Of a stretch of DNA of 64,000 nucleotides, positions 6,434-40,715 are shown in pieces (position 1 is the first letter of the stretch; each line of letters opens with the position of its first letter). The position numbers and the translations under genes were made by a program. The notes under the pieces are model-generated. The model had not been told where the DNA came from. It did not search any database and worked only from the letters and a program-made list of their open reading frames with translations. The stretch is taken from the NCBI RefSeq assembly GCF_029323795.1, contig NZ_CP119758.1, positions 1,550,001-1,614,000 of the forward strand, written 5' to 3'. This DNA is from Zobellia alginiliquefaciens (lineage in GTDB: Bacteria > Bacteroidota > Bacteroidia > Flavobacteriales > Flavobacteriaceae).

Positions 6434-6480
6434 CCTGTACAAATCATTAAAAGAGGCTCTAGCAAAACCTTTCCAATTGC

Positions 6481-7110
6481 TTACGCTATGGCCAATCCTC
6501 TTAATTCCTTAGCTGCTTCTGCAGGGTCTTCTGCTCCGTATATAGCTGCTCCCGCAACTGCTATTATTGCTCCTGAGTTTCTTACCGCATCTATACTACC
6601 TTGGTTTACTCCACCTGCAATAGATACAGGTACACCAGCTCTTGCTGCTTCGTCTATCAAAACTTGAACGGAGTATCCTTCTTCCGCTTGCTCATCCAGA
6701 CCTGCATGTAGTTCAACAAACTCCGCACCTAATGCAATAGCTTCCTGAGCACGTTTAACTCTGTCCTTAACACCAATAGTATCTACAACAACACCTTTAC
6801 CGTGCTCTTTTGCAGCTTTTACCGCTCCTGCTATGGTAGAATCCCCAGTTGCACCTAAAACGGTAATATAATCCGCTCCTGCACCAAAAGCCATATTTGC
6901 TTCCAACTCACCTGCATCTGCAGTTTTAAAATCGGCTAGAACCAATTTATCAGGAAAAGCATCTTTCATCTTTCTAATTCCTGCCAACCCTTCACTTTTA
7001 ATAAGTGGGGTACCTAATTCAATAATATCAATATAAGGAGCCACTTTTGTTGCTAATGCAATTGCATCCTCTATAATCAATAAATCGATCGCTACTTGTA
7101 ACTTTGCCAT
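6481..7110 (-). CDS. hxlA: 3-hexulose-6-phosphate synthase
   Basis: 209 residues, full length for HPS. It condenses formaldehyde with D-ribulose 5-phosphate to D-arabino-3-hexulose 6-phosphate, the first step of the ribulose monophosphate pathway. The OMP decarboxylase-like barrel shows IDIIELGTPLIKSEG, LADFKTADAGE (active-site Lys and Asp), FGAGADYITVLGATGD, ELHAGLDEQA and the phosphate-binding SIAGGVNQ. It lies 54 bases after hxlB and the two should be one transcript. In a heterotroph this more likely detoxifies formaldehyde, or runs backwards to supply pentose phosphates, than supports methylotrophy. Confidence 0.93.
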   Translation of the reverse strand: MAKLQVAIDLLIIEDAIALATKVAPYIDIIELGTPLIKSEGLAGIRKMKDAFPDKLVLADFKTADAGELEANMAFGAGADYITVLGATGDSTIAGAVKAAKEHGKGVVVDTIGVKDRVKRAQEAIALGAEFVELHAGLDEQAEEGYSVQVLIDEAARAGVPVSIAGGVNQGSIDAVRNSGAIIAVAGAAIYGAEDPAEAAKELRGLAIA

Positions 7111-37249: not shown

Positions 37250-37765
37250 ATGAGTTTTAAAGAAGTAAAAATGAATCAAAAAGAATTGAAAAAAATCTAT
37301 AATAAATGGATTAGTTCAATATTTGGAATGCTTTTTTTTGGTACTATATTCTCTTTCATTTTTTACCTCGTTTATGATAGTCACTCCAAACCCTTTCAAA
37401 TAGGTACATTGATGTTTTTAATAATTCTTGGATTTTTTCTTTTTATGGGTCTATTAAATCTCTTAGGATTATTTTTTAGTCCTAACAGCCTGATAAGAGA
37501 TCTTAATCAAAAGAAGAAAATAATAACTAAACTTAAAATTGAAAATAAAAAGTTGACTAAAAAAGCTGGTTCGTATTTTATTTCGGGGTATGCAATATAT
37601 TTTAATGACAATGAGTTTTTAACTACTTATGCGGTTAGTAAAAATACTTTTGAAAAAGTAAACATTGGAGATGAAATTTATCTAGAATGCTCAAAATTTG
37701 GAAAATGGATTATTGATATTCAATGGAACTCTGAAAGCATAGAAAATAGAAGCTATGTAAAATAA
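37250..37765 (+). CDS. Cassette 1: two-helix membrane protein
   Basis: 171 residues; alternative start at 37271 (MNQKELKK). Two transmembrane segments (about 20-43 and 50-75) are followed by a basic stretch (NQKKKIITKLKIENKKLTKK) and a beta-rich soluble domain (GDEIYLECSKFGKWIIDIQW). No family recognised. It starts 21 bases after the cassette core at 37229 and ends just before its attC-like site, which carries an intron. Confidence 0.6.
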   Translation: MSFKEVKMNQKELKKIYNKWISSIFGMLFFGTIFSFIFYLVYDSHSKPFQIGTLMFLIILGFFLFMGLLNLLGLFFSPNSLIRDLNQKKKIITKLKIENKKLTKKAGSYFISGYAIYFNDNEFLTTYAVSKNTFEKVNIGDEIYLECSKFGKWIIDIQWNSESIENRSYVK

Positions 37766-38559
37766 CTGTTTACAATCGAGTGGATGGCTCCGCCATCAAA
37801 TGACGGAGTGCACCCCTCACACCACCGTACGTACGGGTCTCGTATACGGCGGTTCGTAAATCATCAAACCAAGGCTCTTTTCACCCTTGGCACTATCTTC
37901 TAATTTAGGCATAGGCTACAACATGTGCTCCTATGCGAATTTTGAAGAGAATTACGTTCGGTCCTTCCTTGTTTGTGAGACCTCTAGGGTACTGCCCTAG
38001 CTCGTTTCCCGTAAGTACTATGACCTCTGCTGACTTCTCCATGTAGCTACACGTAACTTTGGAGACCTCCCCAGGTAAGAACATCTTCTTTCGCTCGATC
38101 CCTGCCGTATCTACATATCTACCCTTTTGATGTTCTTAGGGCGTTACAATGATGTGCTTGCTTACCCCAAGTAAATATGCCTCTGTATACGGTTCCTGTT
38201 CGTCAGTACCGAGTTTTGTAGTCTCGCTTTCTTCAGATGTAACCTCACGGTTACCACCCTTGCGACTTACTAATGCTTCCAGACGTTACTCCAGCGCATA
38301 AGGGACTTGCACCCTCTAGATTAATTAACTACTTTTCTGTAGTTAAAAGATGCCCATACTGGGCACACACAAAACCTATAAACAATACGGGCTTTGGGCT
38401 TAAACGAAAGGTTTGAGTATTTTTATGAGGTCGCGAAATCTTTGGGATTTCGTATTAATAAATAAAAAAGAAAAAACAAAACCAAAAGATTTCCCTATGT
38501 ACGTGGCGGAAAGCAAACGCCAGTTTGCTCCCGTACTGTTCATAGCTAAAACGTTAGGC
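37762..38559 (+). repeat. attC-like site A, interrupted by an intron
   Basis: Left end ATAACTGTTTACA then, after the intron at 37775-38368, ACAAAACC; right end GTTAGGC at 38553-38559. With the intron removed, TTTACAACAAAACC reads like the left end of site C (ATTACAACAATACC). ACCTATAAACAATACGGG (38374-38391) pairs with CCCGTACTGTTCATAGCT (38530-38547) at 15 of 18 positions. Inner hairpins are AGCAAAC/GTTTGCT and CGAAATC/GATTTCG. Confidence 0.65.
37775..38368 (-). mobile_element. ORF-less group IIC intron
   Basis: 594 nt, minus strand. 5' end GTGTGCCCAGTATGGGC (38368 down) is the class start, with hairpins TGCCCA/TGGGCA and TTAACTAC/GTAGTTAA next. Domain V lies at 37816-37855: ACCGCCGTA pairs with TACGGTGGT, a TACG/CGTA upper stem and a two-base CG bulge, with a CGC-type triad as in group IIC. 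Domain VI: CTCCGTCA/TGGCGGAG (37788-37808). Domain IV is a small GCATAGG/CCTATGC hairpin (37909-37936), with no maturase gene. The 3' end is CGAT, so the intron ends in AY. Insertion is TTGT/TGTAA, the site reported for attC-targeting group IIC introns. Splicing would need a maturase in trans. Confidence 0.85.
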
Positions 38560-38571
38560 AACATTTAAAGA

Positions 38572-39690
38572 ATGGCAAATTATGTAGTTTTAGATACTTC
38601 AATTTATAGAGAACTTGGTCTTAAGTTTAATGAAAACTTGGATTACAAAAATCTTTGCGCATTTACAATGAATACAGATGGCGAAGTCTTGCTATCTGAC
38701 ATAGTGCTGGAAGAATTCAGTAACTATTATGAATCGGTATTGAATTACAAAACAAGTGCTTATATAAAAGCTAATAAAGATTTAGTACGCGACCCATATT
38801 TTAATTCACCTAATGAAATTGAAAGTGGTGTAAAAAAGGAATTAGACAAAGCAATTAAAAATTTTAGAGACACTTTACAAAAAGACCCCATTCATAATCA
38901 CAATATATCTGTTTTAAGACCTACTTTAATTAGTGGTTTAGTACTTACAAAATTCATATTAGATAGTAAAGAAACAAAAGATAGTAATATTCAGATAAGA
39001 GATTATTTAATATGGGATTCTGTTTTAAACTTTGCAAAAGAAGAAAACGAAGATAGGATAACTAAGATTGGTTGTAGAAAAATTACATTCAATAAAAGCA
39101 TTGTCACTTTCATAACTAAAGACAAAGGTTTTGGGAAAAATGAAATATTCCAAAACCTCCTTAGGGAATACAAAATTGATAATTTGGAGGTAATAAATTC
39201 AATTCCAGAATTCTTAGAAAGAAAAGGGTTCTATTTTGATTTTGTAACATCTGAACTAATTAAAGAAAAAATTACTTTTAATCGCATTCTGAAGGATTTA
39301 AGCAAAGATATCGGAGCACTTTTGAGCTATGTTAGCGAAAGGTATAATTCAAATTGCTATGACAAAAAAATTGAAGAATCTGAAATTGAAAAAGTAGAAG
39401 TGCTAGAACATTATACTTATATCGATTCAAATGACAATAAACATAAATTTACCGCTAACTTAAAAGTATGGGTTAGAGTTGTTTTTGAGAAAGATGAAAA
39501 TGGATATAAGGAAAGTTTAAAAATAGAAGAAAGTAGATGGAGAAGTTTAGAAACATATGATGAACAAAAAAGACCCTATTTTCAAAAACCTATAATGTTC
39601 TTTTATGGTGGATTAGTTAATCTAGACCGTAAATCAATTAAAAGTATTAGATTTTTAGATTATATACCAGATATGTATTTAGATGAATAA
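38572..39690 (+). CDS. Cassette 2: PIN-domain (DUF4935-like) protein
   Basis: 372 residues. The N-terminal half is a PIN-like nuclease: VVLDTSIY (first Asp), IVLEEFSNYY (Glu), IRDYLIWDSVLNFA (Asp) and VTFITKDKGFG (Asp). The C-terminal half (about 220-372) is an unknown domain with DSNDNKHKFTANLKVWVRVV. PIN proteins cleave RNA; stand-alone long forms are linked to defence or toxin roles. It starts 13 bases after the core GTTAGGC at 38553. No antitoxin is adjacent. Confidence 0.7.
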   Translation: MANYVVLDTSIYRELGLKFNENLDYKNLCAFTMNTDGEVLLSDIVLEEFSNYYESVLNYKTSAYIKANKDLVRDPYFNSPNEIESGVKKELDKAIKNFRDTLQKDPIHNHNISVLRPTLISGLVLTKFILDSKETKDSNIQIRDYLIWDSVLNFAKEENEDRITKIGCRKITFNKSIVTFITKDKGFGKNEIFQNLLREYKIDNLEVINSIPEFLERKGFYFDFVTSELIKEKITFNRILKDLSKDIGALLSYVSERYNSNCYDKKIEESEIEKVEVLEHYTYIDSNDNKHKFTANLKVWVRVVFEKDENGYKESLKIEESRWRSLETYDEQKRPYFQKPIMFFYGGLVNLDRKSIKSIRFLDYIPDMYLDE

Positions 39691-39888
39691 AAACGTTGCC
39701 TAACACTATATAGCAAATTGGGCGATAAGTGCTTAATCAAAAGGTTGTTGTCTATTTGCAAAGTCGCCAAATCTTTTGATTTGGTATTAAAAGAAAAAAT
39801 TAAAACAAATTACAAAAGATTTAGCTTGTGGCTAAACCGAGAATAATCATTTATTTTCTGCCCAACTTGCCATATATTTAATGTTGGC
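39691..39888 (+). repeat. attC-like site B
   Basis: Left AAACGTTGCCTAAC (R'' = GCCTAAC at 39698-39704), right GTTGGC (39883-39888). GCAAATTGGGC on the left pairs with GCCCAACTTGC at 39860-39870. Inner hairpin CCAAATC/GATTTGG at 39767-39784. About 190 bases long, like site A. Its left end is complementary to the start of cassette 2 (13/14). Confidence 0.65.
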
Positions 39889-39900
39889 AATAATTATAGA

Positions 39901-40521
39901 ATGCGACCTAGAAGTCTTAGAATATTTCAAAAAAGAAAAGGTATTTATATTTCTCCTGAAAAATTGGTCGGTATTTTTTGGACAGCCTTGGTATTTTTAA
40001 CGGCATATTTAAAGCAATCTCGCGGATATGATTATAATGGTTGGGACACTATTCTATTAATTCTATGGCTAGTTTATGTAATCGGACTTATGATTAGCAC
40101 CTTCTTTCGCTATGAACGAGAAATAGGTAAATATTGCGGTAAATTGACTTTTTGGGAAGACAGAATACAAGTGGACGAGACAAATTATAACCTATCTCAA
40201 ATATCAAAATTGGACTTTACTCAAGCATATGATATTAGAGGAATGTTTGTTAATTCTATGCTGGAATTCACTCCACACTTGTCCAATGGATTAAACAACG
40301 TAATGACTCTTGAACTGAAAAATGGACAAAAAATAAAATGTAATTTTTTACAAACCGAATCTGAAAGGCTGAGTCATTTTAAAGAAGTACTGACGCACTA
40401 TCATAAAAATGGAATTCTTGGATGGTTACCACTTATTGACATATTAGGAATCGAAGATTATAATAAAATTCAGGACTTTAAAAAAGAAATAACGCATTAC
40501 AACAATACCTATAGCAAATAG
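39901..40521 (+). CDS. Cassette 3: two-helix membrane protein with PH-like domain
   Basis: 206 residues. Basic start, two hydrophobic helices (KLVGIFWTALVFLTAYL and ILLILWLVYVIGLMISTFF), then a beta-rich part (LTFWEDRIQVDETNYNLSQI) like bacterial PH-type domains, and a helical tail. Starts 12 bases after the core GTTGGC. Family not recognised. Confidence 0.6.
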   Translation: MRPRSLRIFQKRKGIYISPEKLVGIFWTALVFLTAYLKQSRGYDYNGWDTILLILWLVYVIGLMISTFFRYEREIGKYCGKLTFWEDRIQVDETNYNLSQISKLDFTQAYDIRGMFVNSMLEFTPHLSNGLNNVMTLELKNGQKIKCNFLQTESERLSHFKEVLTHYHKNGILGWLPLIDILGIEDYNKIQDFKKEITHYNNTYSK

Positions 40522-40694
40522 GGCATAAAGTGCTAAATTTAATGGCTTGGGTTTATTTACTAAGCCCGCCAAATCTTATGGATTTAGCTTTCGAACAAAA
40601 AAAATAAACAATAAGCTTTAGCTTCGTGCGTAGACGGAAACGAAAAGTTTCCTTGCCTCCGCACTACGCATAGCTAAACCGTTATGTGTAATTT
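40490..40694 (+). repeat. attC-like site C
   Basis: Left ATTACAACAATACC and CTATAGCAAATAGGGC, right GTTATGTGTAATTT at 40681-40694. Shares with site B the CCAAATC...GATTTAG core and with site A the CATAGCTAAA just before the right core (40675). Inner hairpin GGAAAC/GTTTCC and outer GTGCG/CGCAC. Confidence 0.6.
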
Positions 40695-40715
40695 GACAAA
40701 ACCGAGACGAAACTA

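Follow-up and report, generated by a model that had tools for sequence, protein, structure and literature searches.

How does an intron without a reverse transcriptase (RT) gene come to occupy an attC-like site in a genome where no group II RT can be found? The question is posed by Zobellia alginiliquefaciens, in which an earlier note, made from the sequence alone, had placed an ORF-less group IIC intron inside such a site. The window that we analyzed is the whole stretch of 64,000 nucleotides containing this locus, and coordinates refer to it unless stated otherwise. The intron coordinates in the earlier note, 37775-38368, proved exact. The RNA is encoded on the minus strand and is 594 nt long, with its 5′ end GTGTGCCC at 38368 and its 3′ end ..CCACTCGAT at 37775, as indicated by Rfam, the ends of other copies and empty sites. 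Copies in the same genome and elsewhere likewise start with GTGTGCCC and end with ..ACTCGAT, and their flanks differ; therefore, the intron ends are fixed.

The covariance search that had been proposed as a check recovered group II domains in order along the intron. A default Rfam scan of the whole window returned RF02001 (group-II-D1D4-3) alone among intron models, at the domain I core (38254-38080, minus strand; 125.8 bits, E 1.8e-25), and permissive thresholds were needed for RF01998 at 38057-37961 (minus strand; 37.7 bits), probably the region of domains II-III, and for RF00029, which covers domains V and VI at 37854-37775 (minus strand) with 38.9 bits, just below the gathering score of 40. 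In the RF00029 alignment and the fold, domain V (37819-37854, minus strand) has CGC at the place of the model's AGC triad; a CGC-type triad in domain V is a group IIC feature. Domain VI (37775-37818, minus strand) has a bulged A in the folded intron, and the 3′ end is GAT, an AY end. The position of the putative EBS1 loop, CACATCA at 38150-38156 (minus strand), was taken from the folded RNA. The longest stop-free stretch on the intron strand is 76 codons and neither strand has an ORF of 80 aa or more within the intron, so the earlier description of an ORF-less, group IIC-type intron with intact domains holds. It was wrong about domain IV, which had been called one short hairpin: by folding, this domain spans about 95 nt and forms two, D4a (UAGGA..UAGCCUA, 37909-37936, minus strand, from alignment and fold) and D4b (37868-37891, minus strand), the latter with a 7-bp covarying stem and a 10-nt loop, GUGAAAAGAG, at 37884-37875. 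Judged from sequence, 38368→37775 is a complete ORF-less group IIC-type intron, confirmed to the base. Because it carries no RT/maturase ORF and no group II RT was found in the genome, we file it as a non-autonomous relative and not as a standard group IIC-attC member.

The site that holds the intron belongs to a cassette ORF at 37250-37765 (plus strand; 171 aa, no Pfam match). One end of the interrupted attC-like site lies at 37765-37774 (plus strand), with the 3′ exon TGTAAACAG on the minus strand, and the remainder lies at 38369-38568 (plus strand) and ends GTTAGGCAAC; the rejoined site folds with a z of -3.01. The protein encoded by the next cassette (38572-39690) is 372 aa long and has a PIN_12 domain. 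A second attC-like element of the array occupies 39691-39895 and a third, probably the neighbor that the earlier reader called site C, occupies 40489-40700 (both plus strand). Excision of 37775-38368 in silico yields CTGTTTACA|ACAAAACC, resembling the ATTACAACAATACC of the third element, as had been claimed. To search for empty sites, 300 nt of each flank were joined and compared with 60 genomes, including its own. Twenty rows of the resulting table extend at least from query base 291 to base 440, spanning the junction, which indicates that the attC-like element is common and normally empty. A genome of another genus (G011) matched bases 1-316 of the joined query at 90%, across the junction at 300, and differs at the base adjoining it. 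Five of six empty-site alignments cross the junction free of indels at that place but show point differences; one attC-like element among the alignments (L239:1982-2200) has small indels beside the junction, and the Z. alginiliquefaciens array elsewhere carries ACTGCTTACAACAAAACCTATA. An empty relative that differed at the predicted ends had been sought as a refutation; the empty elements run on through the junction with small differences, and the reading of an insertion inside an attC-like site stands.

According to passages of a published account, group IIC-attC introns insert at TTGT/T on the bottom strand, opposite to the cassettes (PMC7923331). At the window's insertion the exons are TTTTGT|TGTAA and the intron is antisense to the cassette genes, in agreement with the fit to this rule proposed earlier. 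Across 89 distinct sites, in which ORF-less, RT-bearing and short copies were pooled, T,G,T|T is near-universal (T at -3 in 85/89, G at -2 in 85/89, T at -1 in 88/89 and T at +1 in 87/89). The longest ORF of at least 90 aa was antisense to the intron by 58:1 downstream (30/89 sites had no such ORF) and by 64:5 upstream (20/89 sites had none). GTTR was present at 81/89 sites and the full GTTRRRY box at merely 4/89, for which reason "attC-like" is the right word. Upstream of the sites RYYYAAC was not enriched (16/89 vs 13.2 in shuffles), and AACG occurred in 79/87 vs 31.7 in shuffles. At the 87 sites whose flanks were long enough, pairing of the junction arm with its own upstream arm had a mean of -13.2 kcal/mol compared with -8.6 to -9.3 kcal/mol when arms were swapped, and own-arm pairing beat the control median at 72/87 sites and all ten controls at 51. 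The sites therefore present both a short IBS1, with TGT|T conserved, and an upstream hairpin in the place of IBS2, as the published rule requires (PMC7923331). Taken together, they follow the group IIC-attC rule, but at attC-like elements that mostly lack the full box.

With respect to the arrays themselves, no IntI integrase passed the 265-bit cut-off of TIGR02249 in the four Zobellia genomes searched. An ORF of 368-375 aa is located close to cassette arrays or to lone attC-like elements in Z. alginiliquefaciens (at 4.207 and 4.268-4.297 Mb) and in two other genomes, G236 and G388 (array loci L236:8962-11596, L235, L238:1769-11393, L240 and L004:7339-9078). In Z. alginiliquefaciens, the recombinase ORF at 4.295 Mb is accepted by the XerA model NF040815 (226 bits) and rejected by that for integron integrases, which would fit an integron-like array served by a recombinase other than IntI.

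We considered whether the intron might be an isolated oddity, which was ruled out by matches across the family, copies in the genus and the wide occurrence of D4b. Intron DNA was matched in 58/397 genomes of the family sample and in six of the nine Zobellia genomes. The Z. alginiliquefaciens genome (G000; one contig of 5,066,785 bases) has three full-length copies that are 96.1-98.5% alike with gap columns excluded. It also has two remnants (L005:3761-3850 and L221:1598-1688), one consisting of a decayed 5′ part followed by intact D5-D6 and the other of a 91-nt 5′ fragment. One copy, G000a, is identical to a copy in another species, G388a, at 584/593 aligned positions (98.5%) and occupies a different site, compared with 83% identity between the two species over a 3375-nt core region, which argues for recent movement between species. 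Exact intron ends are joined to different flanks in G000, G388, G001 and others.

Some copies depart from the common form. A third Z. alginiliquefaciens copy, G000c (L102), and a copy in G400 (L093), both full-length, share about 26 extra nt in domain I beside GAACAGG, which suggests that movement involved the longer form itself. The genome G001 has three copies of 356-357 nt (L104 at C13:42746, L108 at C13:40379 and L111 at C6:495261) with one common internal deletion from later domain I to domain III; they keep both intron ends and occupy three different sites. We rejected these as proof of mini-intron mobility, since they are 93.6-95.0% alike with mosaic differences, which gene conversion would fit too. 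No part of a group II intron is normally more conserved than domain V; extra sequence was seen at its tip in L091:9225-9841 (G001a), L103 (G388), L025 (G212), L022 (G329) and L016 (G346).

The two hairpins of domain IV are distributed differently among intron forms. By eye, D4a stands at the start of domain IV both in ORF-less copies and in RT-bearing relatives, which are 1842-1915 nt long. The D4b loop was present with at most two mismatches in 24/27 ORF-less rows of a BLAST-found set; two rows from G346 have a variant D4b, and an ORF-less copy in G050 lacks D4b and looks like a separate ORF loss. D4b was found near 0/22 RT ORFs (16 distinct, as loci overlap). The sequence GTGTAAAG occurs shortly before domain V in two of ten RT-bearing rows (G080 and G289), with no matching stem by eye, and D4b may accordingly be built on an ORF remnant. 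Loop conservation is partly built into the pattern used for searching; the BLAST-found set and the test of the stem are free of this. Over 56 distinct strings, 94.6% of stem cells were paired vs 60.4% in shuffled strings and at most 49.1% in slid controls, and covariation was 0.897 vs 0.226 (0/500). A covariance model (R1), which holds the D4b stem alone (9 pairs) and includes the window's copy as one of its 58 rows, scored 114.9 bits in the window and no more than 17.1 bits in 38 other, mostly RT-bearing loci. We suggest that the D4b hairpin is characteristic of ORF-less copies, though not universal among them. Domain VI was also found to covary. Ten ORF-less copies were compared, all from genomes in which no group II RT passed the cut-off (the distinct 49-nt rows of 21 collected, the rest being duplicates, of other length or mis-cut); two-sided changes occurred in 10/18 pairs, and 0/500 shuffles were as high. 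We read this as suggesting selection on the ribozyme in such genomes.

A strict D4b pattern was present in 16/397 family-sample genomes and the reversed control gave 0. A scan of a genome contig collection with the D4b pattern returned 91 stretches, and the 80 titles listed are nearly all Bacteroidota, many of them Flavobacteriaceae; further hosts among the 80 are Epilithonimonas, Carboxylicivirga, Sunxiuqinia, Flammeovirgaceae and Cytophagales, along with one Balneolaceae. D4b introns also occur in two metagenome-assembled genomes named after Proteobacteria, Saccharospirillaceae and Sneathiella (L130 and L200), which are possibly misbinned contigs or a transfer out of Bacteroidota. The 80 listed stretches of the 91 (L122-L201) contain 74 distinct D4b matches, and a D3 core lies 50-221 nt upstream of D4b in 49 of them, the remainder being near a contig end or having a diverged core. 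In the 1.6 kb preceding each of the 74 matches, no open frame exceeds 270 codons. Viral contigs gave 0 matches to the D4b pattern. ORF-less D4b introns are carried by the Tenacibaculum finnmarkense plasmid CP116298 (L120:4001-4595 and 6476-6596), with two D4b matches within 3 kb, and by the Chryseobacterium plasmid NZ_CP041688 (L121:3401-3995); the gene table, which is incomplete, has no annotated feature at these places. In our reading, plasmid-borne D4b introns may offer a route for transfer.

The earlier note had advised looking for a group IIC maturase elsewhere in the genome. None was found in Z. alginiliquefaciens with PF00078 (RVT_1), PF08388 (GIIM) or TIGR04416, each of which gave 0 matches and matched its controls; PF01348 gave 0 matches in genomes and controls alike and is hence uninformative. 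None of the nine Zobellia genomes has a TIGR04416 match over the cut-off, and the best sub-threshold matches, in G001, G236, G397 and G400, scored 50-83 bits. We rejected weak matches as group II RTs where they were typed, G400 having a DRT of type UG19, G001 a retron RT and G307 a DRT of type UG17; typing covered these three and left G236, G397, G212 and G335 untyped. Among the 58 intron-matching genomes plus G236, 19/59 passed the TIGR04416 cut-off. The 16 D4b hosts in the family sample include four over the cut-off (G013, G072, G323 and G346), one with a 298-bit match in pieces (G286) and eleven without a group II RT over the cut-off, from which G286 is excluded. Seven have no RT match at E 1e-3 (G000, G388, G019, G203, G225, G311 and G364) and four have weak matches only (G001, retron; G307, UG17; G212 and G335, both untyped). 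Among 37 named hosts, picked from the 80 listed D4b loci and partly repeating family-sample genomes (G414 is G001 and G436 is G072), 15 have an RT over the cut-off, leaving 22 without. It is important to note that RT absence in draft genomes may reflect incompleteness; G000, G388 and G335 are single contigs. Across D4b hosts, cases with a group II RT and cases in which none was found are both frequent, and a driver RT in the host's own genome was found in some other D4b hosts and not in Zobellia.

In a tree of domains I-III, 54 D4b and 14 RT-bearing rows are intermixed, with 10 changes, of which at least 8 are forced. Descent of the ORF-less copies as whole introns in one clade was rejected (AU p 7.4e-57) in a test that omitted, from 90 rows, 17 labelled "other" and five that were odd or sat on long branches. 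Among the five is L189, which is labelled as ORF in the 90-row tree despite its D4b, yielded no 3′ end and has a 238-codon frame downstream. In that tree, in which the ORF-less G296 rows and a 1850-nt Formosa row are labelled "other", four of the five genomes that have both forms show an ORF-less copy grouped with their own RT-bearing intron (G286, support 92/94; G296, 100/99; G053, 100/82; Formosa sp. L2A11, 99/99), and in Maribacter sp. 4G9 the two do not cluster. The last 82 nt of the window's intron are 98% identical to an RT-bearing intron in G144, compared with 77% for the first 427 nt of that intron. This contrast and the clustering within genomes suggest that intron parts have been swapped, as would befit a satellite that depends on drivers resident in the genome. 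Recombination of entire 3′ halves could also account for the occurrence of D4b on many cores.

From these results we propose that the element is probably a non-autonomous, attC-targeting group IIC satellite intron that is marked by D4b and moved in trans by RTs that are often absent from the host. The RNA would splice either unaided or with the help of a maturase from elsewhere that binds D4a, and the excised intron would then reverse-splice into single-stranded attC-like hairpins, with the ACA of EBS1 pairing with the conserved 5′-exon TGT and EBS3 with T. Copying would be performed by the trans-acting RT of an RT-bearing relative, which may reside in some genomes but be transient, carried on a plasmid or lost in the rest. 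D4b would take the place of the ORF, pass between cores by recombination and mark the satellite form. Its loop is a putative binding site, probably for an RT or a host protein; D4a may recruit the RT, and D4b may serve as a recognition element.

Other explanations can be offered for the same locus. The intron could be a dead relic, degenerating where it stands after loss of its ORF and no longer spliced or mobile. Its antisense position in an intergenic site imposes no need to splice, there are copies that have decayed or carry internal deletions, and the genome has no RT, yet the ends and domains are intact, a copy at another site is 98.5% identical where the species' core region is at 83%, D4b and domain VI have compensatory changes and the same D4b form recurs in many genera; we consider a relic unlikely. 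The position within a cassette's attC-like site would also be expected if the intron were passenger DNA, carried by a cassette recombinase without retrotransposition, and tyrosine recombinases, one typed as XerA-like, do lie beside cassette arrays in the genus. However, the joining of exact intron ends to different flanks (G000, G388, G001 and others) requires insertion at the level of the intron at some point, and a relative of the same cassette in another genus is intron-free, which makes the passenger explanation quite unlikely.

A further alternative is that D4b introns dispense with a group II RT, reverse-splicing into DNA that is then repaired by host enzymes or by a DRT or retron RT. 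That 11/16 D4b genomes lack a group II RT over the cut-off would agree with this, as would the DRT or retron RTs of G400, G001 and G307. We know of no pathway that couples reverse splicing to repair without a group II RT. Z. alginiliquefaciens is without any PF00078 match, D4a, the presumed RT-binding hairpin, is retained and a group II RT is present in 15/37 named D4b hosts, and we regard movement of this kind as highly improbable. We thus favor the D4b-marked satellite moved in trans. More tentatively, and as a possibility that we would not call probable, these introns may constitute a phylum-wide Bacteroidota class of non-autonomous group II introns in which a portable D4b replaces the RT gene and moves between intron cores, and which persists and spreads into attC-like sites even in RT-free lineages, as a SINE-like satellite using transient or foreign RTs or a novel route.

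A family with its own conserved domain IV module, and hosts in which no group II RT was detected, offers a clean test of what an ORF-less intron needs for splicing and mobility. If the proposal is true, bacteria would have in the D4b satellite a counterpart of SINE-type parasitism and of the loss of the intron-encoded protein (IEP) presumed en route to spliceosomal introns. We know of no report of a D4b intron family, and a search of titles in the open-access literature found none, which is weak evidence of absence. ORF-less introns are not so rare in general, given that a 2022 survey counted 281 introns without an IEP among 2,381 from 1,790 representative genomes; in the sections of the survey available to us, no conserved domain IV replacing the ORF is described (PMC8919778).

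The Zobellia intron can be compared with three known systems. Like group IIC-attC introns such as S.ma.I2, which are described in part in PMC7923331, it has a group IIC-type RNA inserted at TTGT/T after the attC bottom-strand hairpin and opposite to cassette transcription. Those introns, as described there, come with an RT/maturase, whereas the Zobellia intron has a conserved D4b and no ORF, D4b hosts are often without a group II RT over the cut-off and the sites mostly lack the full GTTRRRY. C.te.I1 of Clostridium tetani, which provides the precedent for an IEP-free host, is likewise ORF-less in a genome without an IEP-related gene, and is called the sole known exception in the portion of PMC4424553 consulted; that portion does not describe it as attC-inserted or as a member of a family, whereas D4b introns are multi-copy and spread between species. 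In Thermosynechococcus elongatus, according to parts of PMC2882425, ORF-less TeI3 introns have multiplied via driver IEPs of RT-bearing introns, and their domain IV has been remodelled with covarying loops. TeI3 is confined to one genome and derives from one ORF deletion that left remnants, with the driver present, whereas the D4b family occupies many genera and many cores, is attC-targeted and has a driver that is often not found. Of the three, the closest precedent is T. elongatus, where the drivers are present (PMC2882425).
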